Origin: Candidatus Raymondbacteria bacterium RIFOXYA2_FULL_49_16 | GTDB lineage: Bacteria; Fibrobacterota; OXYB2-FULL-49-7; XYB2-FULL-49-35 | DNA length: 25,886 nt | Direction of reading: 5' to 3' | NCBI GenBank assembly: GCA_001789205.1 | Contig: MFYT01000099.1 | Span: forward strand, 1-25,886 | Shown here: in pieces, positions 1,574 to 25,043 of the stretch | Layout: each line of letters begins with the position of its first letter | Numbering within the stretch: the first letter of the stretch is position 1 | Program-made: the position numbers and the translations under genes | Notes under the pieces: generated by a model | What the model was told of the DNA's origin: nothing | Database searches by the model: none | What the model saw: the letters and a program-made list of their open reading frames with translations, nothing else

Positions 1574-2557
1574 ATGAATAAATTAATGTTTAAAAAAGCA
1601 TCTTTCTTAATTCTTGTTTTCGCCTCTTTTATATTTTCTTATCCTTATCAGCTTATTTGCACAATTAACGATTCCTCGAGCGGACAACCTCTGGATTCGG
1701 TGCAAGCCTGCATAAGGTATTTTTTCATGCCAACAGACATGGCGAGCTTTGACACATTATTGGCACTAGCACGAACCAATAATCTTGGAAAATGCACGGT
1801 GACAGTACAAAGATGTTTTCCCGACAACATGTATGGCGAGTATGGAAATCCAAGAGTTGAATTCTACAAACCTGGGTTTATTTCAAAGATTTATTCTCCT
1901 GGCTATAATTATCCTGACAGCGTAACAATCGATTCAATTAATTTTAACATGCAACGCCTTGACACTAACAACTTGTGCACTTTATCTGGGAATATCCAAA
2001 ACCGGGACGCGACAAATCTCACCAATGGGGTTGTCTTTGCGATTGCCTCCCTTCAAATTCCGACCAACATGGTTGTTTTAGCCAATTTTTACAATGGCAC
2101 AGTGGACAGCGCCGGGGCCATTAATCTAACTGCGCCGTGCGGTATTTTTTACACCTTTGAATTTTCATTCTCTCACTCTGATCCAAATAGCTACGGGTAT
2201 GTTTACAATAGTCAATTCGTATTGGCCCGCGACACGGTTGTCAGCTTCTTTCAAGAATCACCTTGGACAATAGAAGCAACACGCAGTCCAGTCCGTGATA
2301 CCCTATTATTCACCTGTTCGCCGAATCCATTTAACCCGGCAACAAAACTGTCCTTTTTCTCTCCAATACTCCAGCGATATACGATTGACTTTTTTAACTG
2401 CAACGGCAAACGCATTCAATCATTGTCACAGCGAACATGCTTTGCCGGTCTAAACAACTTAGAATGGCCGACGGATAATATTCCAAGCGGAATGTATTAT
2501 ATACGGCTATCCTTTCAATCAAATTATAAGACAATTCGGGGCACTGTGCTTAAATAG
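1574..2557 (+). CDS. secreted protein with Por-type C-terminal sorting domain
   Basis: A typical signal peptide opens the protein: Lys residues, then the hydrophobic stretch ASFLILVFASFIFS (residues ~9-22). The last ~79 residues form a C-terminal domain of the type read by the type IX (Por) secretion system. They contain SPNPFNPATKLSF, a central NGKRIQSL strand, and IPSGMYYIRL near the end. The middle ~220 residues look like one or two beta-rich, Ig-like domains (first part starting CTINDSSSGQPLDSVQACIRY). I recognise no enzyme motif. The protein is likely exported to the cell surface. It precedes a second protein of the same plan by 26 bp, so the two probably form an operon. Codon use is AT-richer than in the 8-16 kb region. 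The ATG at 1574 is preceded by a poor Shine-Dalgarno sequence. Confidence 0.75.
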   Translation: MNKLMFKKASFLILVFASFIFSYPYQLICTINDSSSGQPLDSVQACIRYFFMPTDMASFDTLLALARTNNLGKCTVTVQRCFPDNMYGEYGNPRVEFYKPGFISKIYSPGYNYPDSVTIDSINFNMQRLDTNNLCTLSGNIQNRDATNLTNGVVFAIASLQIPTNMVVLANFYNGTVDSAGAINLTAPCGIFYTFEFSFSHSDPNSYGYVYNSQFVLARDTVVSFFQESPWTIEATRSPVRDTLLFTCSPNPFNPATKLSFFSPILQRYTIDFFNCNGKRIQSLSQRTCFAGLNNLEWPTDNIPSGMYYIRLSFQSNYKTIRGTVLK

Positions 2558-2583
2558 GGCAATCAATTGTGTGAGGTAATCAT

Positions 2584-3558
2584 ATGATCAAGCTACCGTT
2601 TCTAATTGTATGTATGCTTTTCGTAGGCACCTCCTACCCTTCCAATTATTTCCCCCTGAACCTTGGCAGCCAATGGGACTATTCGTATGAACACTACTGG
2701 TTTTCATGCAATTGTCCGGAACTTGATTGCCACAAGACTGATTTTGGTGCCTATACGCGAAAAGTTATCGTCCACACGTCCGATTCAATAACCATTGAAA
2801 ACATCACACTACTGGACAGCGCGTACCGTTTTATATACACTTCGAACGGAGATCCAGTCTCGTACACGTGGACGCGCATAGATGATACGGTGAGGTATAC
2901 ACCGGCGCTGGTTGAAACAACGTACAGTGTCTATAAGGATTCTGCCAATATGTATTATTGCAAAGTATTTGGATTGGGTGATATTAATGAAATACCGCAT
3001 ACACTCTCGATTGGAGATTCCTTTAGCAATCGGGACTGGACCACCTATCATGTATTCGGGTCCGAAGATTATACAGTTTCAAACAGGACCGTTCCAACAG
3101 TCCGTATTTTCTGGTATTATTACACTACCCTGGACAGCGCGGAAACATATCAATTAGGCGACAATATCGGCCTTACTCTTTTTTCATTAAACGGCAGATA
3201 TCCATTGGAAAACGGGATTCCGGAGGATGGGAATCACTATGATCTGAGACTGATTAATTACAGCACGCCAGACAGTAACGCTATTCAAAGCAGCCACGTG
3301 AACATAGGCACAGAATGTTCCATTCAGGCAGCGCCGAATCCGTTCAACCCAAGCACTACCATTTCTTATTCAACCGGCAATCAGGCAAAGGGTACTATTG
3401 CGATATTTTCTTCGAATGGCCGGCTTGTGGATTCAAAGCAGATTACTGGAAAAGGGACATTTGTCTGGAGTGCCGGGGACAATCCCAGCGGCGTTTATAT
3501 CTGCAACCTGAAAGCTAATAAAAAGATGCTTTCGACCAAGCTGATTTTCCTGAGATAA
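2584..3558 (+). CDS. secreted protein with Por-type C-terminal sorting domain
   Basis: The N-terminus MIKLPFLIVCMLFVGTSYP is a signal peptide. Immediately after it comes YFPLNLGSQWDYSYEHYW, an aromatic-rich start that I have seen at the mature N-terminus of secreted FCB-group proteins of unknown function. The final ~76 residues repeat the Por-type tail of the gene upstream, with PNPFNPSTTISYS, SSNGRLVDS and DNPSGVYICNLKA. The body (residues ~20-245) is beta-rich with many Tyr, Trp and Thr and no catalytic motif that I recognise. GAGG in the sequence GTGAGGTAATC sits 8 bases before the ATG and supports this start. The gene is probably co-transcribed with the preceding one. Both are candidates for surface-displayed, fast-evolving proteins. 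Confidence 0.75.
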   Translation: MIKLPFLIVCMLFVGTSYPSNYFPLNLGSQWDYSYEHYWFSCNCPELDCHKTDFGAYTRKVIVHTSDSITIENITLLDSAYRFIYTSNGDPVSYTWTRIDDTVRYTPALVETTYSVYKDSANMYYCKVFGLGDINEIPHTLSIGDSFSNRDWTTYHVFGSEDYTVSNRTVPTVRIFWYYYTTLDSAETYQLGDNIGLTLFSLNGRYPLENGIPEDGNHYDLRLINYSTPDSNAIQSSHVNIGTECSIQAAPNPFNPSTTISYSTGNQAKGTIAIFSSNGRLVDSKQITGKGTFVWSAGDNPSGVYICNLKANKKMLSTKLIFLR

Positions 3559-3672: not shown

Positions 3673-3915
3673 ATGACAACAATAAGTGCGACCGCGGCAC
3701 GAAAAGAATTATACCATCTTCTCGACGAAGCTAACGAATCTCACACGCCTATTTTAATCGAAGGCAAACGAGGCGGCGCAGTGCTCATTGCCGAAGAGGA
3801 CTGGGCTGCCATTGAGGAAACCCTGCATCTTTCTTCCATTCCCGGCATGAAGGAGTCAATCAAGAAGGGCATGGCAGAACCATTATCAAAGTGCAGTAAG
3901 ACACTCAAATGGTAG
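3673..3915 (+). CDS. antitoxin, Phd/YefM family
   Basis: This 80-residue protein begins with the YefM/Phd DNA-binding fold: MTTISATAARKELYHLLDEA (strand, helix, with Ala-Arg-Lys), then PILIEGKRGGAVLIAEEDW, and ISEL-like helices ending in HLSSIPGMKESIKKGM. The C-terminal tail, Glu/Lys-rich and probably disordered, is where YefM proteins wrap around and neutralise the toxin. It is a cytoplasmic antitoxin and operator-binding autorepressor. GGAGGC lies six bases before the ATG. The stop codon overlaps the toxin start by seven bases (ATGGTAG), which couples translation and keeps antitoxin in excess. The double-GTAC operator lies directly upstream. Confidence 0.88.
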   Translation: MTTISATAARKELYHLLDEANESHTPILIEGKRGGAVLIAEEDWAAIEETLHLSSIPGMKESIKKGMAEPLSKCSKTLKW

Positions 3916-4175
3916 TGTGGTCCCTCTTTTTTACCAAGCAGGCCCAAAAAGACGCAAAAAAACTTTCCTCCACAGGGCTTCGTCCCAAAGCTGAAATCCT
4001 TTTAGCGATCTTAAAGCGTAATCCTTTTCTAAACCCGCCGCCCTATGAAAAACTTGTCGGTGATCTCACAGGCGCATATTCACGAAGGATCAACATTCAG
4101 CACCGTATTGTGTATCAGGTGTTTGAAAAGGAAAAGGCCGTTAAAATTATCAGGATGTTCACTCACTACGATTAA
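3909..4175 (+). CDS. toxin, YoeB/Txe family mRNA interferase
   Basis: The 88-residue protein has the small RelE-like fold of YoeB: WSLFFTKQAQKDAKKL (first strand and helix), then a basic middle with NPPPYEKLVGDLTGAYSRRI and the core strand QHRIVYQV. It ends in IIRMFTHYD. YoeB proteins enter the ribosomal A site and cut mRNA. The usual catalytic residues (a Glu, an Arg and a C-terminal His-Tyr) have candidates here: Glu in YEKL, Arg in HRIVY, and the terminal His-Tyr. The length equals the family norm. Translation is coupled to the antitoxin by the ATGGTAG overlap. The gene looks intact, so the module is probably active. Confidence 0.88.
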   Translation: MVVWSLFFTKQAQKDAKKLSSTGLRPKAEILLAILKRNPFLNPPPYEKLVGDLTGAYSRRINIQHRIVYQVFEKEKAVKIIRMFTHYD

Positions 4176-5830: not shown

Positions 5831-6610
5831 TCAATGACGAAACGTCCCGCACAGCCCAAGAAAACACTCCTTAAGATCTTGATTGGTCGCGAGGACCGTG
5901 TCTCGATAAAGGTCCGCGTTTTCCCCGTAGAAATCACCGATCCATCCGCCAGCCTCTTGTACCAGCACGCTTCCGGCGGCAATGTCCCATGGCTTGAGTC
6001 CCAGCTCATAAAAGGCCTCTGCCCTGCCTGCGGCAACATAGGCAAGATCGAGCGCGGCCGCCCCTTCCCTCCGCTGATCGCCCGCTGTTTTTTGGATGGA
6101 ACCGAAAAGCTCGGTAAAGGGCCCAATATCGTCTGTTTTCCTGAAAGGCGAGCCAAAAAGAACCAAAGCGTCGCGTGCGTCAGCGACCGTGGAGGTGAAC
6201 ATCCGGCGGCCGTTTACATAAGCGCCGCCCCCGGCCTGCGCGGTAAATAATTCAATCTGCATGACATCGTGAACAATACCAAACAAAGGCTTTGCGCCCT
6301 GGTACACGCCAATGGAAACCGCGAACCGCGGATGCCCCCTGAGAAAATTAGTGGTCCCGTCAAGAGGGTCGATGATCCATCTGACATCCCCTGTGCCCTG
6401 GATTCCCTCGGTCTCTTCCGTCTGCAGCGCATGGCCGGGAAAAGCCTCCCTGATTACCGAAACAATGGCCGCCTCGGCCTCGCGATCGACAAAAGATACA
6501 AAATCATTTATTCCCTTGGTCTCGATGTCGCTTTCATCGACCTTTCCAAAATGGCCGCGGATAATGGCCGCGGCCTTTGCCGCCGCGGCAATGGCTGTCC
6601 GGGCAATCAT
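5831..6610 (-). CDS. suhB: inositol monophosphatase family protein (SuhB-like)
   Basis: This is a full-length (259 aa) member of the Li+-sensitive, Mg2+-dependent phosphatase superfamily. Metal-site motifs are complete: TEETEG (Glu66), WIIDPLDGTTNF (Asp81, Asp84, Gly-Thr-Thr) and KPWDIAAGSVLVQEAGG (Asp209). REGAAALDLAYVA (residues ~181-194) is the substrate-side helix found in inositol phosphatases. Likely substrates are myo-inositol 1-phosphate or similar sugar or polyol monophosphates in the cytoplasm. SuhB of E. coli also acts in rRNA transcription antitermination, which cannot be judged here. ATG at 6610 overlaps the upstream gene's TGA by four bases (ATGA), so translation is coupled to the STAS-zinc protein. 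The symbol reflects family, not proven function. Confidence 0.88.
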   Translation of the reverse strand: MIARTAIAAAAKAAAIIRGHFGKVDESDIETKGINDFVSFVDREAEAAIVSVIREAFPGHALQTEETEGIQGTGDVRWIIDPLDGTTNFLRGHPRFAVSIGVYQGAKPLFGIVHDVMQIELFTAQAGGGAYVNGRRMFTSTVADARDALVLFGSPFRKTDDIGPFTELFGSIQKTAGDQRREGAAALDLAYVAAGRAEAFYELGLKPWDIAAGSVLVQEAGGWIGDFYGENADLYRDTVLATNQDLKECFLGLCGTFRH

Positions 6611-7725
6611 GCGAGTTTTGCCGCGACAATACGGATTTCGCGCTGGTGGACCAGGTTTGTGCGCTCAATCCAGAAATCAATGATACGCGCCGTGCCGGGG
6701 TTTTCCAGGTTGCTGTTCCGGAGTTCCGCGAATCGCTCAAGTATGGGAATGGACTCCCGTTGCCGGTTGAGCATGAACGAGAGCACTTCGAGAAAGTAAT
6801 AGGATTGGCAGACTCTACCAAGGTCTGGGTGGGGATTTTTGATCGCCTCGCTGAACCCGTCATACGCGGCCGCAAGGAGCTCATGGTCTTTTTCAGCCTG
6901 GGGCATAAAATGGTAGGCCAGAAAATGGCTGAGTCCATTTTCAAAGAACCTGTTGATGGACCGGTCGAACGAAACAGATCCCAGGCAATCCATGCTCAGC
7001 CGGTACAGGTATTCGAGGGTGTGGTCAGTACGCGTGTCCTGGTCGTTGTTAATGGCTGTTGGGTCTATTTCCGCCTTTTGAAGCAAGGTCCTTCGCCGGT
7101 TGGTTGTGCGCATGATAAGGTTCTTGATGTCGCCGTTGAACAGAGATGGCAGGCGATGTTCACCGGCAATCACGGTGAAATCACTGTAATAAAACGAGTT
7201 CATCAGGCAGTCATTGCATATAATAGGGCCTATCCGGTAGAGTTCGATCTCAGCGCCCGTTGCCTGGTCTTTGCACCGAGGCAGTACCTCGTCGCCTGTC
7301 CAAAAATACTCCACGCGATCGCGGTTAACCACTTGGCCGGGAAAGTCCCCGTTTGCGCATACAGGGCATTCCAGGGAAACCGTAAGAAAACCGCTGGTGT
7401 TCGAATTCTGGAACGCGCGGGAAAGCGCCTCCTCAAAACTCTCGAAAACCGGGATTTCAGCAAGCTGGGCCTGCAGGTCCGCGCACCGCTGCCGGTCCGG
7501 TGCATACACAATGCAACGGCCGCCCTTCTTTTCCAAAGAGACGGTAAAATTGTGGATGCTCTTGATACCAGCATGGTTGAGTGACGGCACAGATGAGAGA
7601 TCGAGAAACACATCGCCCTTGGCAACCAGGGGAGTAAAAAACATCCTCAGTTTCACCAGGTCCTTCTGATCAAGGGGAAAATCAGGCTTCACGATGCTAT
7701 AGCTGCCTATTTTGTCCTGCTGCAT
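6607..7725 (-). CDS. STAS-like domain fused to Cys4 zinc (DUF2225-like) domain
   Basis: Residues 1-~105 resemble a STAS domain: the strand GDVFLDLSSVPSLNHAGIKSIHNF (about 37-60, given here as key elements Asp42, Ser44, Ser48, Gly53), then a strand GGRCIVYAP and the helix with FESFEEALSRAF. Residues ~113-190 carry two pairs of cysteines, CPVCANGDF (120/123) and CNDC (170/173), in a layout like the DUF2225 family, probably a structural zinc site. Residues ~190-372 are helical, with NRRRTLLQKAE and repeated helix pairs that look TPR-like, as in DUF2225 proteins. No transmembrane segment is present. It is first in an apparent operon with suhB, CheX and CheY genes. A role as a signalling scaffold is inference. 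ATG 7725 has no strong ribosome binding site. Confidence 0.7.
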   Translation of the reverse strand: MQQDKIGSYSIVKPDFPLDQKDLVKLRMFFTPLVAKGDVFLDLSSVPSLNHAGIKSIHNFTVSLEKKGGRCIVYAPDRQRCADLQAQLAEIPVFESFEEALSRAFQNSNTSGFLTVSLECPVCANGDFPGQVVNRDRVEYFWTGDEVLPRCKDQATGAEIELYRIGPIICNDCLMNSFYYSDFTVIAGEHRLPSLFNGDIKNLIMRTTNRRRTLLQKAEIDPTAINNDQDTRTDHTLEYLYRLSMDCLGSVSFDRSINRFFENGLSHFLAYHFMPQAEKDHELLAAAYDGFSEAIKNPHPDLGRVCQSYYFLEVLSFMLNRQRESIPILERFAELRNSNLENPGTARIIDFWIERTNLVHQREIRIVAAKLA

Positions 7726-7829
7726 TGATTTACACCCGGTAGATTGTTATTTTAAAACCAAAATATATAGTTCCCAGCGCAAATTACTACGCCACCAGAA
7801 CTTATAAAAATATATATTATTTGGTCTCT
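7726..7829. promoter_or_regulatory. divergent intergenic region, probable promoters
   Basis: These 104 bp separate the minus-strand STAS-zinc operon from the plus-strand L,D-transpeptidase operon and must drive at least one of them. The sequence is very AT-rich. An imperfect inverted pair, CCAAAATATATA (7758-7769) and TATATATTATTTGG (7811-7824), flanks the centre and could be a shared regulatory site or simply two AT-rich -10 regions. I cannot assign -35 and -10 boxes with confidence. Confidence 0.4.
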
Positions 7830-9020
7830 ATGCACACCAGAATTGCCGAAAACATCATCCTTTTCTTCAAAGCGACCTCAGTGCGCTATCAAGCCTTCTG
7901 CCGCGATTCAGAGATCAAGAAAGCCTATGGTATTTCATTTTCCGAGCATCCCCTCCTCATTATTCCCAGTATCGTGTTGAACAACCCGGTCCGCGCCATT
8001 CTGATTCCCGGCGCTATCGTGATCTCTTTTGCCGTTTTCACGCTGCTGAGGGTCTGGGACCCCCCGGTGCACATACGCGCCCACGCCAAGCCCATGGCAA
8101 TGGCCGCGGCCAAACGTCCCGGAGACAGGATCGCAACAGCGCCGAAAAAACCCGAGTCCCTTCCGCCATCAAAGACCTTCATTTATTCCCTGCTTGCCGA
8201 CAAAAGCAAGAAAAAACTGACCTTGTTCAAGTTCTACACTGACGGCAGCGTGCGGTATGTCAAAAAATACAACATCGCCATAGGTGAAAATTGGGGGCGC
8301 AAGGAAAAACGGGGCGATCTCAAGACGCCCGAAGGCTTCTATTGGCTCATTGACGTTATGGAAGACGAGGTGCTGCCCCCCATCTACGGCATCCGCGCCT
8401 TTGTGACAAATTACCCCAACGAACAGGACCGGACCGAACACCGGAACGGCGTGGGCATCTGGATCCACGGGTGTGAAAAAGGCAAGAGCCCGGACAAAAC
8501 AAAGGGGTGCCTCGAACTGGGCAACGACGATTTGGCCGAGGTCTCCAAGTTCATCACCATCGGGACACCTATTTTCATCGCCGAATCAATCGCCTCCCCC
8601 GACGATTCTATAAAAAAATATTTCAACTGGAACGACATCTTTAAGCAGCGCGCCTATATCTACGAACTGAACGAACGCAGCGCGGATTTCGCGCAGAGCT
8701 TTGTCGAAGACTGGAGCCAGGCGTGGCAGTCAAAGGACATTGAGAAATACTCATCCATGTATAGCGATGACTTCTCGCAGGACGGCATGGACTTCAAGGA
8801 ATGGAAGGAATACAAGCGTTCCATCTTCGCAAAGGCGGGCGCCATTGCCGTTCGCGTGTCAAACATCAAACTGCAAAAAATGTTTGACGATTCCGCGTAC
8901 GTGCGCTTTATCCAGGACTACGAATCGGAAACATACCGGTCGAGTAACGCAAAGACCATCAAACTGGTCAGGAGCAACGACGACTGGAAAATCCAGAGAG
9001 AAACGATCGAAACCCAGTAA
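7830..9020 (+). CDS. L,D-transpeptidase-fold protein with C-terminal NTF2-like domain (Csd6/Pgp2-like)
   Basis: The 396-residue protein starts with a cytoplasmic stretch, then a single membrane helix (residues ~56-73, AILIPGAIVISFAVFTLL), then a Lys/Pro/Ala linker. The YkuD (L,D-transpeptidase) domain spans ~115-255. It has GDLKTPEGFYWL and the active-site pair His213 (IWIHGCEKG) and Cys227 (KTKGCLEL), typical of the YafK/DpaA-like branch. Residues ~285-396 (FVEDWSQAWQSKDIEKY, then SDDFSQDGMDFKEW) form an NTF2-like domain. This combination is that of Helicobacter Csd6 and Campylobacter Pgp2, periplasmic L,D-carboxypeptidases that trim peptidoglycan tetrapeptides and set helical shape. Enzyme specificity here is unproven. 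I chose ATG 7830 over TTG 7821; neither has a good ribosome binding site. The gene heads a six-gene plus-strand run. Confidence 0.82.
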   Translation: MHTRIAENIILFFKATSVRYQAFCRDSEIKKAYGISFSEHPLLIIPSIVLNNPVRAILIPGAIVISFAVFTLLRVWDPPVHIRAHAKPMAMAAAKRPGDRIATAPKKPESLPPSKTFIYSLLADKSKKKLTLFKFYTDGSVRYVKKYNIAIGENWGRKEKRGDLKTPEGFYWLIDVMEDEVLPPIYGIRAFVTNYPNEQDRTEHRNGVGIWIHGCEKGKSPDKTKGCLELGNDDLAEVSKFITIGTPIFIAESIASPDDSIKKYFNWNDIFKQRAYIYELNERSADFAQSFVEDWSQAWQSKDIEKYSSMYSDDFSQDGMDFKEWKEYKRSIFAKAGAIAVRVSNIKLQKMFDDSAYVRFIQDYESETYRSSNAKTIKLVRSNDDWKIQRETIETQ

Positions 9021-9034
9021 CGCAGGGAGAATCC

Positions 9035-11620
9035 ATGGCCGAGCAGAACGACGCCGCGGGCAGAATTGACGAGCCCATGCGGACAGACCAGCCGGAACTA
9101 AACGACCTTTTCGACCGCCTGGCCCAGAGGCGTAACGACATAGAATCGTCCATCAAACTTGCCGACCAGCGCCTCTCCGAAATCCACGCGGCGAACAAGC
9201 GTACTGAGGCCCTGCGCGATGAAATCCAGTCGCTCAGAAACCAGACCGTTTCATTTCTCGCCCAGTCGGAAGAAGTGATGAAAAATTCCGGCGACATCGG
9301 GCAATACCAGGAAAAAGCCACCAGTCTCGAAACATTACTCGGCACGCTGGAAGGACGCATAGAAAAGGCCTATGCCAAAAGCGTGGAGATCGAAGGCCTT
9401 GAGAAACGGCTGACCGAACTTGCGGGAAACATTGACCCCAATGCCGAACGCTTCAAGGGCGACATGAAAACCATAATCGACCTCGACCAAAAAATCACCG
9501 CGGTTGGAAACGTCCTGGAAAAGTTCACCAGCGCACAGACCCGCCTCCAGACGCAGATTACCGAAGCCGGGGCCAAACTGCAGGAGGTGCAGGCCCTTTC
9601 CGGCACGCTGAACGAGACCGTTGAACGTTTCAGGTCCGAGCGCGAAGGATACCAACTCACCAAGCAGAAGGTGGACAGTCTCAACCTCCTCGCCGAGCAT
9701 GTGACCACCAAGGTAAAAAACCTGGAACGTCAGCGTAACATTGTCGAGCGGGTGAACCAGCAGGGAGCGCGCCTCAACATCATGATGCTCGACATGGAAT
9801 CCAACATCAAGGACCTCTCTGAACAGATGAAGACCATTAAACGGACCGAGGACAAAATCGGCCAGCTCGAGGGCATGCTCGACCGCACCAGCACGAATAT
9901 CGAGGAAATCCGCAACTTCGAGCGGCTCATCAAGACCACGTCCGAAAAAATAAACACCATGGAGACGCTTGCCCGGGAAATGGACAAAAAGCTCAGCGCG
10001 TTCAACAAGAACCGGGAGATCATCGATACGGCGTCGGAAAAAGCGCACGAGGTCTACACCATGACCAAGAACGCGGACGCTCTTATGAATACCGTGTCCA
10101 AGCAGATCAAATGGATGCAGGACTCGGTGGAACGCGTCGCGGGGTACGAAAAGGCCGTGGAAATAGTGCGCGTGAAAATCGACGAGGTGCAGAACGAATG
10201 GAGCGTGGTGGACACGCTTGAGGAACGCATCGGCAGGCTCAACACCAAGATCGGCGACATGGAGAGCGTCATCAAGACACTGTCGCACGAGCAGGACGAA
10301 ATCCGGACCTTCACCTCGAAAATCGAGGAGTTCAAGATCATCATCAACGATATCGCGGCGAAAATCGAAGGCCTCTACCAGCACCGCAATACCATCATTG
10401 AAATCGAAAAACAACTCGCCACTTTCAACACAGTCATTACCGCGGTCAACAGCCACATCGACGAAATATCGATCAAAGAGAACAGCATCAAGGATGTTTC
10501 CAACCGCCTGAACAAACTCGACGCGGTTTCCGTTGCGGCAGCGGAACGGGCCGATGCGGTGGCCAAAAAGGTCACCTTTGTCGACGAGGTCGAACACAAG
10601 ATCAAGAACATGGGCGGCCTGGTCACGGAAATCGACGAACGGATATCGCTGCAGCTGCAGCGCAAGGCAATGATAGACAAAACCGAGAAGCGCCTGGACC
10701 AGCTGAATTTCCTTTTCGAGGACATTTCGCTCAAGATCCAGAACCTGAACACCGAGGACGAGCACATTCTGCGCATTTCCTCGAAACTCGACCATCTCAA
10801 CGGCACCAGCGCTGAACTCGATGGAAAGATCAACGCTGTTTCCTCGGAAATGCAGCGGCTCATGGACGAAGAAAACCGTATTACCAAGATTGGCAACGAG
10901 ATCCGCCAGCTTTTTGATAACGCTGAGAGCATCATCGGCAATTTCCGCTCAGACACCAACACTATTGTAAGCCAGATCGAAGTTACCAAAAAGGAGTTCC
11001 ACGCCCTTACCAGCGACATCAACATCAAGATGGAGGGCATCGGCAAAAACAAGGAGATCATCGCCGAGGCGGAGAAGGAGATGCGGAAATCGTTCGGATT
11101 GGTGGAAAAACTCGAGCAGAGCATCGAATCGCTCAAGCGGAAAAAAACCGTCATTGAGAGCGTGGAAGCCAAGGTCGACAAACTCAAGGCCACACTCACC
11201 GACTTCGAGAGCAGACTCGATAAAATCGCCAACAGCCGGAGCGAAATGGAAGCGATCCAGAAGGAAATCAGCGGCCTCTACAAAATCATGGAAAAGGCCA
11301 AGACCGAGATCGAGACCATTTCGCGCAAGGAACGCGACATCAAAAAGGTCGAGGAGAAAGTCAACGCCCTGGTCGACCTTATGCAGACGGTGAACGAGCG
11401 CATGATCGAAATCTCCCAAAAGGAAAATACCATAAAAAAAGCCGAGACCCAGATCGAGAACCTCAACCTGCTGGTTGAAGACATCAAGGTCGAGATCAAA
11501 AACCTTTCGTTCGAGGAAGAGCTCATTCGCCGCGCCAACGAAAACGCCGCCCAGCTTACCTTCCTGCTGAACGAGGCTGAAGCGAAGATCATTGAACTTA
11601 AAAAGGCCGGAAACCGGTAA
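9035..11620 (+). CDS. 861-residue coiled-coil protein of 31-residue repeats
   Basis: Almost the whole protein is predicted coiled coil by eye. It has no signal peptide, membrane helix or Walker motif, so it is not SMC or another ATPase. From about residue 202 to 604 the sequence runs in exact phase as 13 units of 31 residues. After an irregular ~67-residue spacer, six more units run from ~672 to 857. Each unit has a hydrophobic residue at positions 5, 12, 15 and 26 and often begins KEN-I or similar (KENSIKDVSNRLNKLDAV, KENTIKKAETQIENLNLL). The first ~40 residues are acidic and less regular. A cytoskeletal or scaffold role is inference. From memory, similar annotated proteins exist in spirochaetes and related phyla ('SpiroCoCo'). 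GGGAG precedes the ATG, 14 bp after the L,D-transpeptidase-fold gene. Confidence 0.85.
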   Translation: MAEQNDAAGRIDEPMRTDQPELNDLFDRLAQRRNDIESSIKLADQRLSEIHAANKRTEALRDEIQSLRNQTVSFLAQSEEVMKNSGDIGQYQEKATSLETLLGTLEGRIEKAYAKSVEIEGLEKRLTELAGNIDPNAERFKGDMKTIIDLDQKITAVGNVLEKFTSAQTRLQTQITEAGAKLQEVQALSGTLNETVERFRSEREGYQLTKQKVDSLNLLAEHVTTKVKNLERQRNIVERVNQQGARLNIMMLDMESNIKDLSEQMKTIKRTEDKIGQLEGMLDRTSTNIEEIRNFERLIKTTSEKINTMETLAREMDKKLSAFNKNREIIDTASEKAHEVYTMTKNADALMNTVSKQIKWMQDSVERVAGYEKAVEIVRVKIDEVQNEWSVVDTLEERIGRLNTKIGDMESVIKTLSHEQDEIRTFTSKIEEFKIIINDIAAKIEGLYQHRNTIIEIEKQLATFNTVITAVNSHIDEISIKENSIKDVSNRLNKLDAVSVAAAERADAVAKKVTFVDEVEHKIKNMGGLVTEIDERISLQLQRKAMIDKTEKRLDQLNFLFEDISLKIQNLNTEDEHILRISSKLDHLNGTSAELDGKINAVSSEMQRLMDEENRITKIGNEIRQLFDNAESIIGNFRSDTNTIVSQIEVTKKEFHALTSDINIKMEGIGKNKEIIAEAEKEMRKSFGLVEKLEQSIESLKRKKTVIESVEAKVDKLKATLTDFESRLDKIANSRSEMEAIQKEISGLYKIMEKAKTEIETISRKERDIKKVEEKVNALVDLMQTVNERMIEISQKENTIKKAETQIENLNLLVEDIKVEIKNLSFEEELIRRANENAAQLTFLLNEAEAKIIELKKAGNR

Positions 11621-11635
11621 GCGGCCGGCGCCATC

Positions 11636-13819
11636 ATGTCGGGTATCGGTGAAATCGGATTTCTGCACTCGAGCGAACTTTTTTTAAAAAATCTCGAGAA
11701 GAAAAACCCCGAGGCTGACCTCGCTCTGGTCAAAAAAGCACTCACCTACAGCTACAACGCCCACCGCAACCAGTTCCGAAAGTCGGGCGGCCCTTTCCAG
11801 ACCCACGCCATCGAGGTGGCGCGCATCCTCACCGACCAAAAAATGGACGCGAACACCGTGTGCGCGGGCCTTCTCCACGATGTCATCGAAAACACGGAAA
11901 TCACCTACGAGGATATCAAAAAGGAATTCAACGAAACCGTGGCCAATCTTGTGGATGGCGTCACAAACATCAGCAATATCCCCTTTAAGAGCACTGAAGA
12001 GCTGCAGATCGAGACCTACCGGAAAATGCTCATCTCCACGGCAAAGGACATCAGGGTCATCATCATCAAGTTCGCCGACCGCCTCCACAATCTGCGCACG
12101 TTGAAATACCTGGACAAGGCAAAAATCCGGCAGATAGCGCAGGAAAGCATGAACGTCTATGTGCCGCTCGCGCACCGGATGGGCATGGCGCGCATCAGGT
12201 GGGAAATGGAGGACCTTTCCTTTAAATACCTCTACCCCGCCGACTATGATTTTCTGCTCACAAAATTCGCCGACACCAGGGCCCAACGCGACCAATCCAT
12301 TCTCGAGATACGTACTATTATCTCCGGCCTGCTCCAGAAGCATGGAATCGAAGGCACAATTCTGGGCAGGTCGAAACATCTTTTTTCCATATTCAAGAAA
12401 ATCCAGTCGGGCAAAATATTCGAGGAAATCTACGACCTTTTTGCCATCCGCATCGTTGTGCGCGACGTCATCGACTGCTACAAGGTGCTGGGTATCATCC
12501 ATTCCATCTGGATACCGGTCCAAAACCGGTTCAAGGACTACATCGCAACGCCCAAAAGCAACAAGTACCAGTCCCTGCACACGGCGGTCATTGGCCCCAA
12601 AGGGCGAATGCTCGAAATCCAGATCCGCACCGAGGAAATGAATCAGATCGCCGAAGCGGGTATTGCCGCGCATTGGATCTACAAGGAAAACAAGGAGGCG
12701 CAGCACAGCTCAAACGCCAAAAGCTGGATCAAGGAACTGGCCGACCTTCCCAAGGACCTGGCAAACCACGACGAATTCATGGATTTTTTCAAGGTTGATC
12801 TCTTCCAATCGGAAATATTCGTCTTTACCCCAAAAGGGGACCTTGTCCAGCTGCCCAAGGGGTCCACAATCCTCGATTTCGCCTTTTCCGTGCATTCAGA
12901 CATGGGACTCCAGTGTATCGCGGGGAAGATAAACGGCAAGGCCTATCCTATAAACACAGTGCTGCGCAGCGGATCAACGGTCGAGATCATCAAGGCGTCA
13001 TTCCAGACACCTACCGCCGAGTGGCTGAACTGGGTCACCACCATCAAGGCAAAACGCGACATTCGGCATTGGCTCAAACAGAAAAGCCATGCGCACAAAG
13101 CCACGCTGGGAAAAGAGCTGTTCGAACGCGAACTCCTTAAGATCGGCGCCACCGGCGACCATACCGAAAAACTCTACGCGCTCTTTCCTCATTTCAAGAT
13201 CGAGGACATCAACGAACTCTACTTTGCCATTGGCAACGGCGACATCCCCGCACTGCTCATCATCGACCGCATATACCCGCAGAAACAGGTCTTGAAAAAT
13301 TCCGGAAAATCATTCTTCAGGAAGCTTATCGCGTCGCCTAAAAAATCTCCGGCGCAGGCCGGTCTTGCCATCAAGGCGCCCGACAGCACAACCATCCATT
13401 TTGGAAAATGCTGCCAGCCCCTGCCGGGCGATAAAATATCCGGCTATCTGGTCAAGGACCGCGGGGTCGAGATCCACCGCACCACCTGTACCCATGGCAT
13501 GATGCTTATGGGAAAAGAAGAGAACAAAATAGAGGTCAGTTGGGACCCGCAAAACGAATTCCTCTACCGTCTCCGCCTCCAGGTGATCGCGCGCAACAGC
13601 ATGACCAGCGTCTCTGACATCACGCGCGGGCTGGCTACCGCTGAAGCGAACATTATACACGCCCATATAAAGCGCAAGGGCGCCCTCACCTTTCAGACGT
13701 ATCAGATTGAGCTGAGCAATCGCCACCATTTGAATAAAATTTTCCGTGAGCTGCGGGCCATTAAGGGGGTAAAAAAGATGTCACGTGAAAATATTTTTGA
13801 AGAGGAATTCGATGCTTAA
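11636..13819 (+). CDS. rel: bifunctional (p)ppGpp synthetase/hydrolase, Rel/SpoT family
   Basis: The 727 residues carry the full RelA/SpoT order. The HD hydrolase domain is at ~35-185 with metal ligands His57, His81-Asp82 and Asp148 (ADRLHN). The synthetase domain is at ~215-370 with GRSKHLFSIFKK, RFKDYIATPK, YQSLHTAV and EIQIRTEEM. TGS is at ~405-465 (FVFTPKGDLVQLPKG), the zinc-finger/CC region at ~590-620 (CCQPLPGDKISGY) and a C-terminal ACT domain follows. It makes and removes ppGpp at the ribosome in response to amino-acid starvation. The hydrolase Glu-Asp diad reads Glu85-Asn86 (HDVIENT), a substitution that may weaken hydrolysis. The gap to the coiled-coil gene is 15 bp and no strong ribosome binding site is visible. 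The 3' end overlaps the next gene by eight bases. Confidence 0.95.
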   Translation: MSGIGEIGFLHSSELFLKNLEKKNPEADLALVKKALTYSYNAHRNQFRKSGGPFQTHAIEVARILTDQKMDANTVCAGLLHDVIENTEITYEDIKKEFNETVANLVDGVTNISNIPFKSTEELQIETYRKMLISTAKDIRVIIIKFADRLHNLRTLKYLDKAKIRQIAQESMNVYVPLAHRMGMARIRWEMEDLSFKYLYPADYDFLLTKFADTRAQRDQSILEIRTIISGLLQKHGIEGTILGRSKHLFSIFKKIQSGKIFEEIYDLFAIRIVVRDVIDCYKVLGIIHSIWIPVQNRFKDYIATPKSNKYQSLHTAVIGPKGRMLEIQIRTEEMNQIAEAGIAAHWIYKENKEAQHSSNAKSWIKELADLPKDLANHDEFMDFFKVDLFQSEIFVFTPKGDLVQLPKGSTILDFAFSVHSDMGLQCIAGKINGKAYPINTVLRSGSTVEIIKASFQTPTAEWLNWVTTIKAKRDIRHWLKQKSHAHKATLGKELFERELLKIGATGDHTEKLYALFPHFKIEDINELYFAIGNGDIPALLIIDRIYPQKQVLKNSGKSFFRKLIASPKKSPAQAGLAIKAPDSTTIHFGKCCQPLPGDKISGYLVKDRGVEIHRTTCTHGMMLMGKEENKIEVSWDPQNEFLYRLRLQVIARNSMTSVSDITRGLATAEANIIHAHIKRKGALTFQTYQIELSNRHHLNKIFRELRAIKGVKKMSRENIFEEEFDA

Positions 13820-14378
13820 TCCGCGGCAATCAGAGCAGGACGACCTTCCCACGGCCAACCGCGCCTATAATCTGCGAATGCGCGACATCTATTTCGGCAA
13901 GGCGTGCCGTATTCTTTCCCGGCTAGGAAAAGGATTGCACAAGGCGCTCCTCAAGCCCGACCTTTCCACCCTCGGGAATGTCTGCAACGCGCTTGATATC
14001 GCCCTTGATTTCGCCCGTCAGGCTGTCGCCGGACAGGTACAGGCAAAAAAGAAGGACGAAACCCTCTCCCGGCAGCCTCCCCTGCTGCTCAGAGAGGAAG
14101 TGCTCTATCTCCATCTGCTGGAAGAGCTGGCCAGCTCCGGGCGTTTCCTTAAAACCCGCTTCAACACCATCGTTGAACTGGGCAAGTACCGCGATGGCAT
14201 CTCCGCCCTTCCCCTGGACCAGGAGGTCGTCAAAGGATATATAACCCAGATCATGTATTTCCTGGACGAAAACAGAAAGGCCGAGGAGGAGGAAATCCGC
14301 GCGATCATCACATTAATATTGAAACGCATGCACCTCATCAACCATATTCAATCTATTACCAGGAAGGCCAATGGCTGA
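13812..14378 (+). CDS. uncharacterised all-helical protein between rel and pyrF
   Basis: I do not recognise this 188-residue cytoplasmic protein. It appears to be all helix, with long Leu/Ala/Lys-rich stretches (GKACRILSRLGKGLHKALL, NALDIALDFARQAVAGQ, LREEVLYLHLLEELASS) and an acidic run DENRKAEEEEIRAI before a final basic helix. No metal, nucleotide or DNA-binding motif is visible. The start is ATG 13812, inside the end of rel (eight-base overlap) with AGAGGA six bases upstream. A further upstream in-frame start would lie deep in rel and has no ribosome binding site. Its own stop overlaps the pyrF start by eight bases. Being clamped on both sides by overlaps means its output is tied to Rel and PyrF. 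A regulatory partner of Rel is one guess. Confidence 0.7.
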   Translation: MLNPRQSEQDDLPTANRAYNLRMRDIYFGKACRILSRLGKGLHKALLKPDLSTLGNVCNALDIALDFARQAVAGQVQAKKKDETLSRQPPLLLREEVLYLHLLEELASSGRFLKTRFNTIVELGKYRDGISALPLDQEVVKGYITQIMYFLDENRKAEEEEIRAIITLILKRMHLINHIQSITRKANG

Positions 14379-20818: not shown

Positions 20819-22192
20819 ATGAGAATAATTCTAATTTCGACCCTGCTCATAAGCCTCCGGCTCTGCGGCCAGAGTTTTTCCAATGGTCTGTCCGCGGATC
20901 CGTCCTATTTTCCCATCGCGGTCTGGTTACAGGATGCGGAAAACATCGCCAATTATCAGGCCATCGGAATAAACATGTACGTTGGTTTGTGGAACGGGCC
21001 GACTCAAACGCAGCTCCAGGCTTTAAAAACAGCGGATATGTCGGTAATCTGCGACCAGAATTCCTACGCCCTGGCCAATCTTTCCACCTATGGCCGCGTC
21101 ATCAAAGGCTGGATGCAAGGAGACGAACCCGACAACGCCCAATGGAATGAGGCCACACAAACCTATGACCCGTGCATCGATACCTCGGTTGTGCAAGCGG
21201 ACTATGCGGCGTGGCGGACGCAGGATACCACGCGGCCCGTTTTCCTTAACCTGGGCCAGGGGGTCGCCTATATTTCATATATCGGTCGCGGTGCCTGTTC
21301 GGGAAACACAAGGCTGTATCCAGGCTACCTGCGGGGCTGCGACATCGTCTCTTACGACATCTATCCAGTCAACAGCGAATACGCCCAGGTGCGGGACAGC
21401 CTCTGGTATGTTCCCAAAGGCGTGGACAGCCTTCGGCGTTGGGGAAACGACACAAAGCCGGTCTGGTGCTGGATCGAATGCACGGCCATCAACGCCAATC
21501 AAAAACCGACGCCCGCCCAGGTCAAGGCGGAGGTTTGGATGGCACTTATCCATGGCGCCAGGGGATTCGGATATTTCTGCCATTCCTGGTATCCTTTTTT
21601 TGCGGAGGCCGCGTTGCTCGCGGATCCGGAAATGAAGGACAGTGTTGCGACAATCAACGTCCAGGTTCGCTCGCTCGCACCCGCACTGAATTCACCAGAT
21701 GCGGTTAACGCGGTTTTCGTCGCATCATCCAATACGGCTGTGCCGGTGGATGTCCTTACCAAGATCCACGGAGATTCGCTGTATGTTTTTGCCGCAGCCA
21801 TGCGCGGTGAAGCCACGAACGCTACTTTCACCCTGAATAATGGCAGTCGCGGCTCCGAGGTGGATGTCATCGGCGAATCCAGGACGCTCATCTTGTCCGG
21901 GAATTCCTTTACGGATGCCTTTGGCGGTTATGGGGTGCACCTATATCGCATCTGGAACACCTCTACGTCTGGTGAAACCATGTTAATACCAGTCCGCGAG
22001 AAGAGGACTGTCCGGTTCGAGATTTATGATGTCAGAGGGAGGCTGGTCGGCAGTATCAAAGGCCGATATGACGGCTCGGACGGATTTCCCCAATTCGCGG
22101 CAATGGAACAGAACCTGCCCAACGGGATATACCTGTGCCGAATCTCTGGAAACGGAGTGAAAGTTGCTACAATACGGGTCGTCATACGATAA
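20819..22192 (+). CDS. secreted TIM-barrel glycosidase-like protein with Por-type tail
   Basis: The 457-residue protein has a short signal peptide (MRIILISTLLISLRLCGQS). Residues ~25-285 look like a glycoside-hydrolase-type TIM barrel. They contain FPIAVWLQD, GWMQGDEPDN (Asp102/Glu103, a common acid motif of such barrels), CDIVSYDIYPVNS, PVWCWIECTA (Glu near 220) and MALIHGARGFGYFCHSW. The first and second Glu are the candidate catalytic pair by analogy. Residues ~290-370 fit a beta-sandwich. The last ~75 residues form the Por-type domain: RFEIYDVRGRLVGS, then LPNGIYLCRISGNG. A surface enzyme acting on a polysaccharide is likely, substrate unknown. GAGGAGGAG lies six bases before the ATG. It follows the heparinase-like gene in the same direction but at a distance of 415 bp. 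Confidence 0.75.
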   Translation: MRIILISTLLISLRLCGQSFSNGLSADPSYFPIAVWLQDAENIANYQAIGINMYVGLWNGPTQTQLQALKTADMSVICDQNSYALANLSTYGRVIKGWMQGDEPDNAQWNEATQTYDPCIDTSVVQADYAAWRTQDTTRPVFLNLGQGVAYISYIGRGACSGNTRLYPGYLRGCDIVSYDIYPVNSEYAQVRDSLWYVPKGVDSLRRWGNDTKPVWCWIECTAINANQKPTPAQVKAEVWMALIHGARGFGYFCHSWYPFFAEAALLADPEMKDSVATINVQVRSLAPALNSPDAVNAVFVASSNTAVPVDVLTKIHGDSLYVFAAAMRGEATNATFTLNNGSRGSEVDVIGESRTLILSGNSFTDAFGGYGVHLYRIWNTSTSGETMLIPVREKRTVRFEIYDVRGRLVGSIKGRYDGSDGFPQFAAMEQNLPNGIYLCRISGNGVKVATIRVVIR

Positions 22193-22323: not shown

Positions 22324-22704
22324 GTGTTGAAAAAGGAAATCCCTATCAATTTAATCTGGCTGCCACGTCTACTGATCATTGCGTACACGCTATTCATCTC
22401 ACTCTTTGCGCTCGATACTATGGCCGGATCAGCACCGATGCACCAAAAGGCTGGCGGCCTTGCCATGCACCTGATCCCCTCCCTCATTCTTCTGATCACT
22501 CTGCTGGTATACTGGAAAAACCCGCTCCACAGCGGCATGGTCTTTATTGCGCTTGGCGTTGTATTTACGGTATGGTTCAACACAAACAGGGACATAGGCA
22601 TCTTCTGTATGATATCGCTACCCCTGATATTAGCAGGAACGCTTTTTATCGCCTGTTTTCTCGCTTCGAGGAAAAAAGCCTCTGGCAATCGTTTATCGGG
22701 GTGA
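22324..22704 (+). CDS. small four-helix membrane protein (DUF7670-like)
   Basis: The 126-residue protein has four hydrophobic segments: ~11-29 (LPRLLIIAYTLFISLFALD), ~47-63 (LIPSLILLITLLVYWK), ~71-84 (MVFIALGVVFTVWF) and ~92-113 (IFCMISLPLILAGTLFIACFL). It ends in a basic tail. This layout, with Arg in helix 1 and HLIPS at the start of helix 2, resembles the widespread FCB-group DUF7670 family of unknown function, judged from memory. The start is GTG at 22324 or TTG three bases on, with GAGGAGG ten bases before. Its last 12 bases overlap the end of the convergent secretin gene. No partner gene suggests a role. Confidence 0.65.
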   Translation: MLKKEIPINLIWLPRLLIIAYTLFISLFALDTMAGSAPMHQKAGGLAMHLIPSLILLITLLVYWKNPLHSGMVFIALGVVFTVWFNTNRDIGIFCMISLPLILAGTLFIACFLASRKKASGNRLSG

Positions 22705-23925
22705 TTCGATGCTGATATTGTCCCCTGTACCGGCCTTCACAATCCTCGGGGTAAGCAGGATCACCGTCTCAACGTCCTTGACTTCGTCCCGGGTCGATGA
22801 AAAAATCCGTCCCAGAAATGGAATCGCACCAAAAAACGGCAGCCGTTTTTGAACGCGTGATTTTTTCTTGGAAATGAGCCCTGCAAGCGCCAGCATCTCA
22901 TCAGCGTTCATCTTGACCTGGGTATGGACCTCCTTGCGGCTGAGCGCGGGATATTTGTCGACCGCGTTTGCCCAGTCAAGATCGCTGATTTCACACGCAA
23001 TCCGCACTTCTATCTCCTTGCCGTCGGTACGCAGAAGCACGGGTGAGACGTCGAGTTTGATGCCAAACTGCTTCCAGTTTACCTCGATCTGCTCATTTGT
23101 GGCGTACGGGATGGGCACTTCCCCGCCAACAAGAAAATCTGCCTTCATGCCCGAGCGGCACACCAGTTTGGGTCTGGCCAGGACGGAACCTTTGCCTTTA
23201 GTAATAAGAAAATGCAGCTTTGCCGTAAGAGGATTGAGACGGGCAAACGTGCCAACAGCGTAGGACGGCTTGGGGAAAAGGACAGTGGGAATGCTCTTCT
23301 CCCCCACCACCACGGACGCTCCTTCATTTACCACGTTCCCGTAATTAACACCGCCGGAAAAAGAGGCTGCCGTTGTAGTCTGGCCGAACCAGTCAATGCC
23401 AAGGTCTGAGGCATCAGCCAGTGAAATTTCGATTATTTCCGCGTCTATCTGGATAAGCACATCGGACCGTGTGTCGCGCGTGAAATTCATGACCTCGGGA
23501 AAACGTTCGGCAACCATGGCCGCCCTGCGTGCTTCCTCTTCACTCGTTACCGTGCCGCCCAATTCAACTCCATTGCCTACTCGTTTGACCGAAAGCGTCT
23601 GCAAATCGGCGCAGATCCGTTTAACCTCAGCGAACAGTTCCTCGGCCTCCCGACCAATGACCGTAAGGGTCATTGCCTCTTTTCTGCCGTCACGGAAACT
23701 GATGGTGCACGAGACCACGCCCGGAGTAACACCCGTGACAATGACCTCATTGCCGCTGTTGACCAATGTCGCGCGGGCAACGCGGCCGCCGCCGGCAATG
23801 GACACCTGCAGCGCGTCCTTCACGCTCAGGCTCTTCTGCTGGCCCACGTACAATTCGATAACATCGTCCTGCTGCGCCCACAGCGCAGCGCAAAGGCATA
23901 TGAGCAGAAACAGGAAATTTCTCAT
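22693..23925 (-). CDS. cpaC: Tad/Flp pilus secretin, CpaC/RcpA-like
   Basis: The 410-residue protein starts at ATG 23925 with signal peptide MRNFLFLLICLCAALWAQ. An N-terminal pilus-secretin domain follows (~22-92; VGQQKSLSVKDA, VTGVTPGVVSCTISF), then a BON-like domain (~95-150; VKRVGNGVELGGTVTS). The secretin beta-barrel domain (~160-400) has LIQIDAEIIEISLADASDLGIDW, VLARPKLVCRSG, VGGEVPIPYA, ALAGLISKKKSRVQKRLPFFG and ETVILLTPRIV. It forms the outer-membrane ring through which the Flp pilus is extruded. GTGAGG, its ribosome binding site, lies over the stop codon of the upstream lipoprotein gene, so the two are coupled. It is the last gene of the minus run; ATPase and inner-membrane pilus genes do not follow it here. 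Confidence 0.9.
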   Translation of the reverse strand: MRNFLFLLICLCAALWAQQDDVIELYVGQQKSLSVKDALQVSIAGGGRVARATLVNSGNEVIVTGVTPGVVSCTISFRDGRKEAMTLTVIGREAEELFAEVKRICADLQTLSVKRVGNGVELGGTVTSEEEARRAAMVAERFPEVMNFTRDTRSDVLIQIDAEIIEISLADASDLGIDWFGQTTTAASFSGGVNYGNVVNEGASVVVGEKSIPTVLFPKPSYAVGTFARLNPLTAKLHFLITKGKGSVLARPKLVCRSGMKADFLVGGEVPIPYATNEQIEVNWKQFGIKLDVSPVLLRTDGKEIEVRIACEISDLDWANAVDKYPALSRKEVHTQVKMNADEMLALAGLISKKKSRVQKRLPFFGAIPFLGRIFSSTRDEVKDVETVILLTPRIVKAGTGDNISIESPR

Positions 23926-23933
23926 GCCATACC

Positions 23934-25043
23934 TCACTGTATTTTCGCCCACAAGCCCGTTGTACGGCTGCCATTGGGGCTGGTGACCGCGACATTAAAA
24001 TAAGCATACTGCATGCCCGCGTCCCTAATGCGCACCTCGAAGTCGGTATATCCGGAAACAACATCGGGCAGGGTAATATCTGTCTCACCGAGCAATTCAG
24101 CGGACCCGGAGACGCTCATGACGATATGAGTCCCGCAGGAAAGCGGATATCCGTTGGCGTCGGCCACGTGCACCCGTACGGCCGCGCTTCCGCCCGCGGA
24201 CACTGGTATGGTATCTGAGGGCGACCCGGGGTGCGACAGGGTAAGTACCGGCAAGCCTGAAATGACAAGCTCCGAAGAGGCTGAGATCTCTTGTCGCGAA
24301 GCATCGCGGGTAACAGCGGTAATCGTTATCTTACTATCAACCGGCACGTTCTCGGATATGAGGAAAAGCGCGTCCACCTGGCCCACACTGTCGCTTAATC
24401 CGCCTTCGGTGATACCGCCTCCGGTCGCGGAAAAATAGACCATGACCGGACAGGCGGGATTTCCATATGCGTCAAAGAGCAAGGCGCGCACCTGAATGCC
24501 GGTCCCGATCACCAAGGGAATGTTCACTTTTTCGGGAATAAGCGTGAAATTGCTTCCCACGGGCGGGCCGCCTGAAACAAGCAGGGGTACAATGGCGGAT
24601 GAGGCGCGTATTGCCAGGTTAGCGTCGCGGTATTCGGCGTTGATCGCGCACACGCCCGCGGCAGTGCCGCTCTTGTAGACGCAGGTGACATGGCCGTTAT
24701 TCGTGGTGTCGCTCAGCGTAACAAGCACGCCTCCGGAATCAGGGCCGTTTTTCTGGAATTGGATACAATAAGCGCCGTTAACCCTGGTTCCAGCGCTGTC
24801 CATCACCAGGAAGGTGATGACCGAGGTTTCGACCCCGCCTACGCCCGTGACGCTGACCCTGGAAAAAGAAATCGACTCAAGCGCGATAAGCGCGGGTTCC
24901 TTGGAGGAAAGCAACGGCACGGTATCACGCAGATCAGCCGTGTCCGGAACAACCGGCGCCGATTGGGGACCGGGCGAAAAAACGCCGTCGCACCCCAGCA
25001 GGAAAAGTCCCGCGCCGCAGGCGAATACAATGGTTTTAATCAT
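23934..25043 (-). CDS. lipoprotein with Ig-like (Big-1/invasin-like) domains in pilus locus
   Basis: The start is ATG 25043, whose first bases overlap the CpaB-like gene's TAA by eight bases. The lipobox LFLLGC makes Cys18 the probable lipid-modified residue. After a Ser/Pro linker (to ~55), three or more tandem Ig-like domains follow. Each begins with a strand such as ISFSRVSVTGVGGV and contains VLFDAYGNPACPV, VHVADANGYPLSCG or VMDSAGTRVNGAY. These are the DxxGxP-type motifs of Big-1 (invasin/intimin) domains. It ends in ...GLWAKIQ. Its place between CpaB and CpaC points to an outer-membrane-anchored partner of the secretin, taking the position of RcpB/TadD-type accessory proteins or of a pilotin. 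Role is inference. No enzyme motif is visible. Confidence 0.75.
   Translation of the reverse strand: MIKTIVFACGAGLFLLGCDGVFSPGPQSAPVVPDTADLRDTVPLLSSKEPALIALESISFSRVSVTGVGGVETSVITFLVMDSAGTRVNGAYCIQFQKNGPDSGGVLVTLSDTTNNGHVTCVYKSGTAAGVCAINAEYRDANLAIRASSAIVPLLVSGGPPVGSNFTLIPEKVNIPLVIGTGIQVRALLFDAYGNPACPVMVYFSATGGGITEGGLSDSVGQVDALFLISENVPVDSKITITAVTRDASRQEISASSELVISGLPVLTLSHPGSPSDTIPVSAGGSAAVRVHVADANGYPLSCGTHIVMSVSGSAELLGETDITLPDVVSGYTDFEVRIRDAGMQYAYFNVAVTSPNGSRTTGLWAKIQ

Follow-up and report, generated by a model that had tools for sequence, protein, structure and literature searches.

Here we describe two adjacent genes in a 25,886-nucleotide stretch of DNA (hereafter the window) from Candidatus Raymondbacteria bacterium RIFOXYA2_FULL_49_16, a member of the Fibrobacterota. 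The window is contig MFYT01000099.1, positions 1 to 25,886, and the source genome is 5.4 Mb. The genes encode a predicted membrane-anchored enzyme of the Csd6/Pgp2/Bd1075 type and an 861-residue coiled-coil protein. They probably form a cell-curvature module, in which an LD-carboxypeptidase would be tethered, by a short cytoplasmic tail, to a coiled-coil scaffold. We propose binding, filament formation and an effect on shape from features that were computed directly: domain architecture, catalytic residues, topology, a sequence repeat, strict pairing, joint loss and a tail limited to paired enzymes. A first-pass annotation of the window had already suggested an enzyme-scaffold pair. The idea gains strength from conservation, co-loss and the common cytoplasmic tail. 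The exact 31-residue repeat of the coiled coil, the conserved tail and the joint losses were absent from that annotation.

We read the enzyme gene from an ATG as a 396-residue protein; a TTG at position 7821 is an alternative start. The protein matches the Pfam families YkuD (PF03734, E 1.5e-14) and, at its C-terminus, Cds6_C (PF24125, E 1.5e-20), the NTF2-like C-terminus of the Csd6-type family. The top sequence matches with a solved structure were Bd1075 of Bdellovibrio (7o21, 4.8e-40), Csd6 of Helicobacter (4xzz, 2.8e-24) and Pgp2 of Campylobacter (6xj6, 7.7e-18). The AlphaFold model has a predicted local distance difference test (pLDDT) score of 84.5. In order, it contains a helix at residues 2-33, a helix at residues 53-72, a disordered linker, the catalytic domain and the NTF2 domain. 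We took the second helix as a putative membrane anchor. The first helix, by its position before this segment, is predicted to be cytoplasmic. A structure search with the model gave Csd6 (Z 19.6), Pgp2 (Z 18.7) and Bd1075 (Z 17.6) as the top hits, and the match spans both domains. The large root-mean-square deviations from these structures are probably due to a differing angle between the domains.

His213, Gly214, Cys227, Tyr186 and Trp211 are invariant among 17 aligned sequences. Tyr186 and Trp211 are the equivalents of Csd6 Tyr133 and Trp158. Csd6 residues Glu110 and His155 are replaced by Arg161 and Val208 in the enzyme; Bd1075 has Arg and Ser at these positions. Because Bd1075 is an active LD-carboxypeptidase with changed residues at the same sites, LD-carboxypeptidase activity, as indicated by family, is likely here too. 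Judged by its predicted domain architecture, the protein is a member of the Csd6/Pgp2/Bd1075 family, of which its tail and partner would make it a variant. It shares with all three the YkuD domain followed by an NTF2-like C-terminus, the catalytic His and Cys, and the Tyr and Trp. It differs in having a conserved N-terminal helix of predicted cytoplasmic location, a membrane anchor and a coiled-coil partner gene. The Csd6-like relatives examined in other phyla have no such tail or partner, except those in records L094 and L102.

The coiled-coil gene follows after a gap of 14 nucleotides that contains a GGGAG ribosome-binding site. Its product lacks a Walker A motif, membrane segments and Cys, and contains three Pro. 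The first-pass annotation had described a membrane-anchored enzyme of Csd6/Pgp2 architecture with an NTF2-like C-terminus and a His213/Cys227 pair, 14 bp upstream of an 861-residue coiled coil lacking ATPase motifs. Each of these particulars agrees with the sequence and structure matches, the alignment, the coordinates of the open reading frames (ORFs) and the motif search.

We next consider how the two genes are distributed. The survey covered 167 Fibrobacterota genomes, and a score above 140 bits counted as a strong enzyme match. Relatives of the enzyme were found with an alignment profile; a search with the single protein alone gave none. Strong enzyme matches occur in 40 genomes and the coiled coil in 36. 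The enzyme is present in all 36 coil-bearing genomes, and no genome has the coil alone. The two genes are adjacent and co-directional in 35 of the 36, as checked directly; in G070, two contigs end exactly between them. Spacing in the relatives is commonly a 4-nucleotide overlap, or a gap of up to 18 nucleotides. Since the unit recurs in 36 genomes, the pairing is not a matter of chance.

The pair has been lost jointly at least six times. A tree of Rel proteins, whose branching may differ somewhat from that of the species, shows eight changes of state for the pair, six of them forced by well-supported branches. Genome G018 lacks exactly these two genes between flanks common to its congener G006. 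Beyond the Fibrobacterota, just two records showed the pair: L094 (titled Acidobacteria) and L102 (an unplaced bacterium, where rel is also present). Thus, of the neighbourhood search that the first-pass annotation had envisaged across the FCB (Fibrobacteres-Chlorobi-Bacteroidetes) phyla, conservation beyond this one genome is upheld within the Fibrobacterota; a spread over the FCB group is not.

Paired enzymes start with about 36 residues (consensus K..EFR..TWKR.REI.RAY) that precede the membrane helix. A profile of this tail scores 47 bits in the enzyme of the window and 8-62 bits in paired enzymes of most families. Conversely, unpaired Csd6-like proteins (from Proteobacteria, Acidobacteriota, Neomarinimicrobia and Bdellovibrionota) reach no more than 0.6 bits, and the majority of them begin with a signal-peptide-like segment. 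Our tabulation of tail scores lists G054, G070 and G057 as unpaired, yet the coil is present in each; the first two entries result from contig edges and the third from an artefact of ORF picking. Genome G014 has a normal enzyme core (425 bits). The coil gene that would separate its enzyme from rel has been lost, with no copy elsewhere in the assembly, and none of the upstream frames encodes the tail. Its congener G067 has both coil and tail. A tail found solely alongside the coil is the expected trace of direct contact, and we infer that the tail binds the coil.

Csd6-like genes elsewhere have other neighbours. In Neomarinimicrobia, a Csd6-like gene is immediately followed by a Peptidase_M99 gene of the Csd4/Pgp1 family (L124:7725-10584 and L139:7899-10555; likewise L143, L146 and L160). 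Where scanned, these M99 genes matched PF17033 (5e-42 and 2e-37). Such a csd6-csd4 operon suggests wall trimming for helical shape in Neomarinimicrobia. At L120:7266-9571, L123:7356-9490 and many proteobacterial and acidobacterial loci, the Csd6-like gene stands in tandem with a tetratricopeptide repeat (TPR) protein bearing its own Cds6_C NTF2 domain. This TPR-Cds6_C and Csd6-like combination is an uncharacterised pair, and the enzyme locus of G166 resembles such loci. At L216:1-519 (G158), where the start is cut by the contig end, the enzyme is reduced to its catalytic domain; NTF2 domain and coil are absent and rel comes directly after.

The coiled coil has a strict 31-residue repeat. Autocorrelation of its hydrophobic pattern is 0.486 at lag 31, 0.393 at lag 62 and 0.333 at lag 93. 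In 1000 shuffles of 7-residue blocks, the maximum at lag 31 was 0.11. Shuffling of single residues gave a maximum of 0.14 across all lags from 20 to 120. Lags 31 and 62 rank top or near top in all 23 homologues tested. The period is four heptads plus three residues, a regular stammer. Because the repeat-unit boundaries were set from a seed of 31, independent evidence for the period comes from the shuffle test and not from them. The AlphaFold model is about 97% helix, with a low confidence (pLDDT 62) that supports the all-helix prediction only. From the helix rise, the rod would be about 130 nm long.

The closest curated family is the spirochaetal SpiroCoCo (NF047515/NF047514). Both NCBIfam cut-offs are reached, by SpiroCoCo_C with 165 bits (cut-off 125) and, only just, by SpiroCoCo_N with 75.4 bits (cut-off 75). 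Relatives of the coil score 95-155 bits with the SpiroCoCo_C model, and single six-frame stretches fall below the cut-off. The best alignments stop before the last part of the model, and several overlapping registers match. Hence, on sequence grounds, a common repeat type would be a safer description than orthology. A literature search found no paper naming SpiroCoCo, and a plasmid search for SpiroCoCo gave no match. Identity with SMC, Rad50 or ASRP was considered and rejected: the similarity is of a generic coiled-coil kind, ATPase motifs are absent and scores are far below the cut-offs. Long coils of mostly 900-980 residues, with the same 31-residue period and no enzyme neighbour, occur in G286, G399, G198, G369, G277, G353 and G313 (L228-L235), in the phylum of L094. 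Some of these exceed the SpiroCoCo_C cut-off.

Crescentin and Ccrp proteins act in cell curvature. They too are long coiled coils without nucleotide-binding motifs (PMC10873595, PMC2776988). The coil here differs in its 31-residue period and in its linkage to a wall-enzyme gene.

A parallel in organisation is the BacA-LmdC module of Hyphomonas and Rhodospirillum (PMC10945521). In Rhodospirillum, the M23 peptidase LmdC has a short cytoplasmic tail by which BacA, the product of an adjacent gene, recruits it to one side of the cell, and curvature is modulated (PMC10945521). Adjacent genes are found in our case also, and so, in prediction, is a bitopic periplasmic peptidoglycan enzyme with an N-terminal tail; its recruitment to a cytoplasmic polymer would complete the likeness. 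The parts differ. The putative scaffold is an all-helical coil with a 31-residue repeat, and the Pfam scan gave no bactofilin domain. The enzyme is of YkuD-NTF2 type, not M23, and its tail is a predicted helix, not a beta-hairpin. By analogy, the Fibrobacterota pair would work like the BacA-LmdC module without being a member of it: the same logic, with unrelated parts. Because the pair matches this logic, we propose a scaffold role for the coil: lying beneath the membrane, it would collect the enzyme through the enzyme's tail.

The proposed mechanism is as follows. A single helix would anchor the enzyme in the inner membrane, and the YkuD domain would project into the periplasm. There, this domain would trim the terminal D-Ala off peptidoglycan tetrapeptides, as do Csd6, Pgp2 and Bd1075, and the NTF2-like domain would bind the wall. 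On the cytoplasmic side, the short tail would bind the 31-residue-repeat coil. The coil may assemble into an extended rod or filament below the membrane, which would restrict the enzyme to a single side or line of the cell. Uneven trimming could then lead to curved or helical growth. Bd1075 localises to the outer convex face of the cell, where its NTF2 domain is required; the authors of that study state that no mechanism is known for asymmetric targeting to the side wall (PMC8938487). We suggest, tentatively, that the pair may be a new type of morphogenetic cytoskeleton, in which a filament of 31-residue-repeat coils positions a Csd6-family carboxypeptidase across the membrane via a dedicated tail. 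If so, it would provide a mechanism for the one-sided placement of curvature enzymes, and might link the same type of coil to the helical shape of spirochaetes. In that case, tethering of a wall enzyme to a scaffold would have evolved on at least two occasions from unrelated components, namely bactofilin with M23 and coil with YkuD-NTF2. Comparative genomics points here to a concrete answer on enzyme placement, in a phylum that has received little study and includes spirilla, vibrios and rods.

Cell shape in cultured members of the phylum is consistent with a role in curvature. The recorded shapes are spirillum for Chitinispirillum alkaliphilum, vibrio for Chitinivibrio alkaliphilus and non-motile rod for Fibrobacter (PMC4814513). 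The pair is present in G026 and G004, which we matched to the first and second of these species, respectively. Neither gene occurs in any genome of family f2, taken as the family holding Fibrobacter. The flagellar protein FlhA was detected in 60 genomes; 26 of these lack the pair, and 34 belong to the 36 that have it. The two pair-bearing exceptions are incomplete. The pair is nested in lineages with flagella, a pattern to be expected if curvature helps the cells to swim. Such a distribution would also suit a system for wall trimming and anchoring at a flagellum or other envelope machine, with the coil positioning the enzyme where a flagellum or pilus passes the wall and any effect on shape being indirect. 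A link between Csd6 and the deglycosylation of flagellin has also been described in H. pylori (PMC4599014). We consider this explanation unlikely. The 26 flagellated genomes without the pair mean that the pair is not merely a motility trait, no shared flagellar neighbour was recognised beside it in the loci read (where most neighbours are unannotated), and Csd6, Pgp2 and Bd1075 act on curvature. It is quite unlikely that the enzyme is instead an LD-transpeptidase or a DpaA-type amidase, with the coil directing local 3-3 cross-linking or release of outer-membrane lipoprotein. The YkuD fold is common to Ldt and DpaA (8ikr, Z 14.2), and Glu110 and His155, essential in Csd6, are not conserved. However, the whole two-domain architecture and the best matches are those of LD-carboxypeptidases, and the changed residues resemble those of Bd1075, which is active in curvature.

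The gene order raises two further explanations. The rel gene lies 15 nucleotides after the coil in the window and adjoins the pair in about 23 genomes; at this locus it is probably co-transcribed with the pair. The first-pass annotation had expected co-transcription, and from it a tie between morphology and starvation. An operon of rel, enzyme and coil, through which (p)ppGpp controls shape, is nevertheless highly improbable, and the tie is not supported: G048, G052, G024 and G064 retain the pair with rel at another location, and rel occurs in nearly every genome of the survey, also where the pair is absent. We place rel outside the conserved unit. Alternatively, coil and enzyme might share an operon only, their adjacency being historical and the coil having another cytoplasmic role, such as nucleoid or division organisation. 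Contact between tail and coil is, after all, deduced, long coiled coils have many roles, and coils of the 31-residue type without an enzyme neighbour exist in another phylum. We nonetheless give this little credence, given pairing in 36 of 36 genomes, joint loss at least six times, retention of the pair where rel has moved away, and a tail that is restricted to paired enzymes and absent in G014.

Several observations weigh against a tail-tethered curvature module. The shape correlation rests on three cultured lineages and is phylogenetically thin, and G026 and G004 were matched to the named species indirectly, not by accession. A Csd4-type M99 peptidase (Csd4/Pgp1), which would be a second trimming partner, was found in none of the 167 genomes, in a search run without a positive control. 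The tail is not uniform. In genus g29 of family f7 its score falls from 34 bits to none, although a diverged tail is visible by eye, and L102 is a further exception. The tail profile was trained on paired enzymes, though many of the scored genomes lie outside the training set. The case of G014 is one natural experiment only, and its assembly is fragmented. Finally, relatives of the coil stand without an adjacent enzyme in a few further genomes of L094's phylum.

The layout of the locus is given in Table 1.

Table 1. Features of the enzyme and coiled-coil locus, with the adjoining rel gene.
Feature	Position in window	Strand	Basis
Csd6/Pgp2/Bd1075-type membrane-anchored LD-carboxypeptidase-like enzyme (predicted), 396 residues	7830..9020	+	Pfam, PDB matches, AlphaFold
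Cytoplasmic N-terminal tail (predicted), residues 1-36, conserved helix; proposed coiled-coil contact	7830..7937	+	Alignment, predicted helix 2-33, tail profile
Single transmembrane helix (predicted), residues ~53-72	7986..8045	+	Predicted helix 53-72; hydrophobic peak at equivalent place in relatives
YkuD catalytic domain; His213 at 8466-8468, Cys227 at 8508-8510	8190..8579	+	Pfam, alignment
NTF2-like C-terminal domain (Cds6_C)	8697..9002	+	Pfam; sole Cds6_C match in genome
Cytoplasmic coiled coil (predicted), 861 residues, 31-residue repeat; proposed scaffold	9035..11620	+	Repeat analysis, NCBIfam SpiroCoCo_C 165 bits (cut-off 125)
Most regular part of the 31-residue repeat, residues ~187-620	9593..10894	+	Hydrophobic-pattern analysis
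rel/spoT, co-directional neighbour	11636..13819	+	TIGR00691 1.6e-213

Promoter and terminator scans gave results at chance level. The divergent upstream neighbour (6607-7725) has a weak Pfam match to STAS. We rejected the gene upstream of the pair as a member of the unit; relatives have a protein of about 370 residues that is not homologous to this STAS-like gene. The gene after rel was rejected likewise: relatives have a DUF4388 protein, not homologous to the ORF at 13785-14378 (+). The latter encodes 197 residues, lies between rel and pyrF and is without a family match. Further away, a Phd/YefM antitoxin and a YoeB-type toxin form a pair at 3673-4175. Proteins with C-terminal sorting domains of Por (type IX) secretion are encoded at 1574-3558 and 20819-22192, the second match being weak. 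On the reverse strand, positions 22693-25782 encode a secretin, a Big_1/invasin-like protein and CpaB/RcpC of a Flp-pilus type system.

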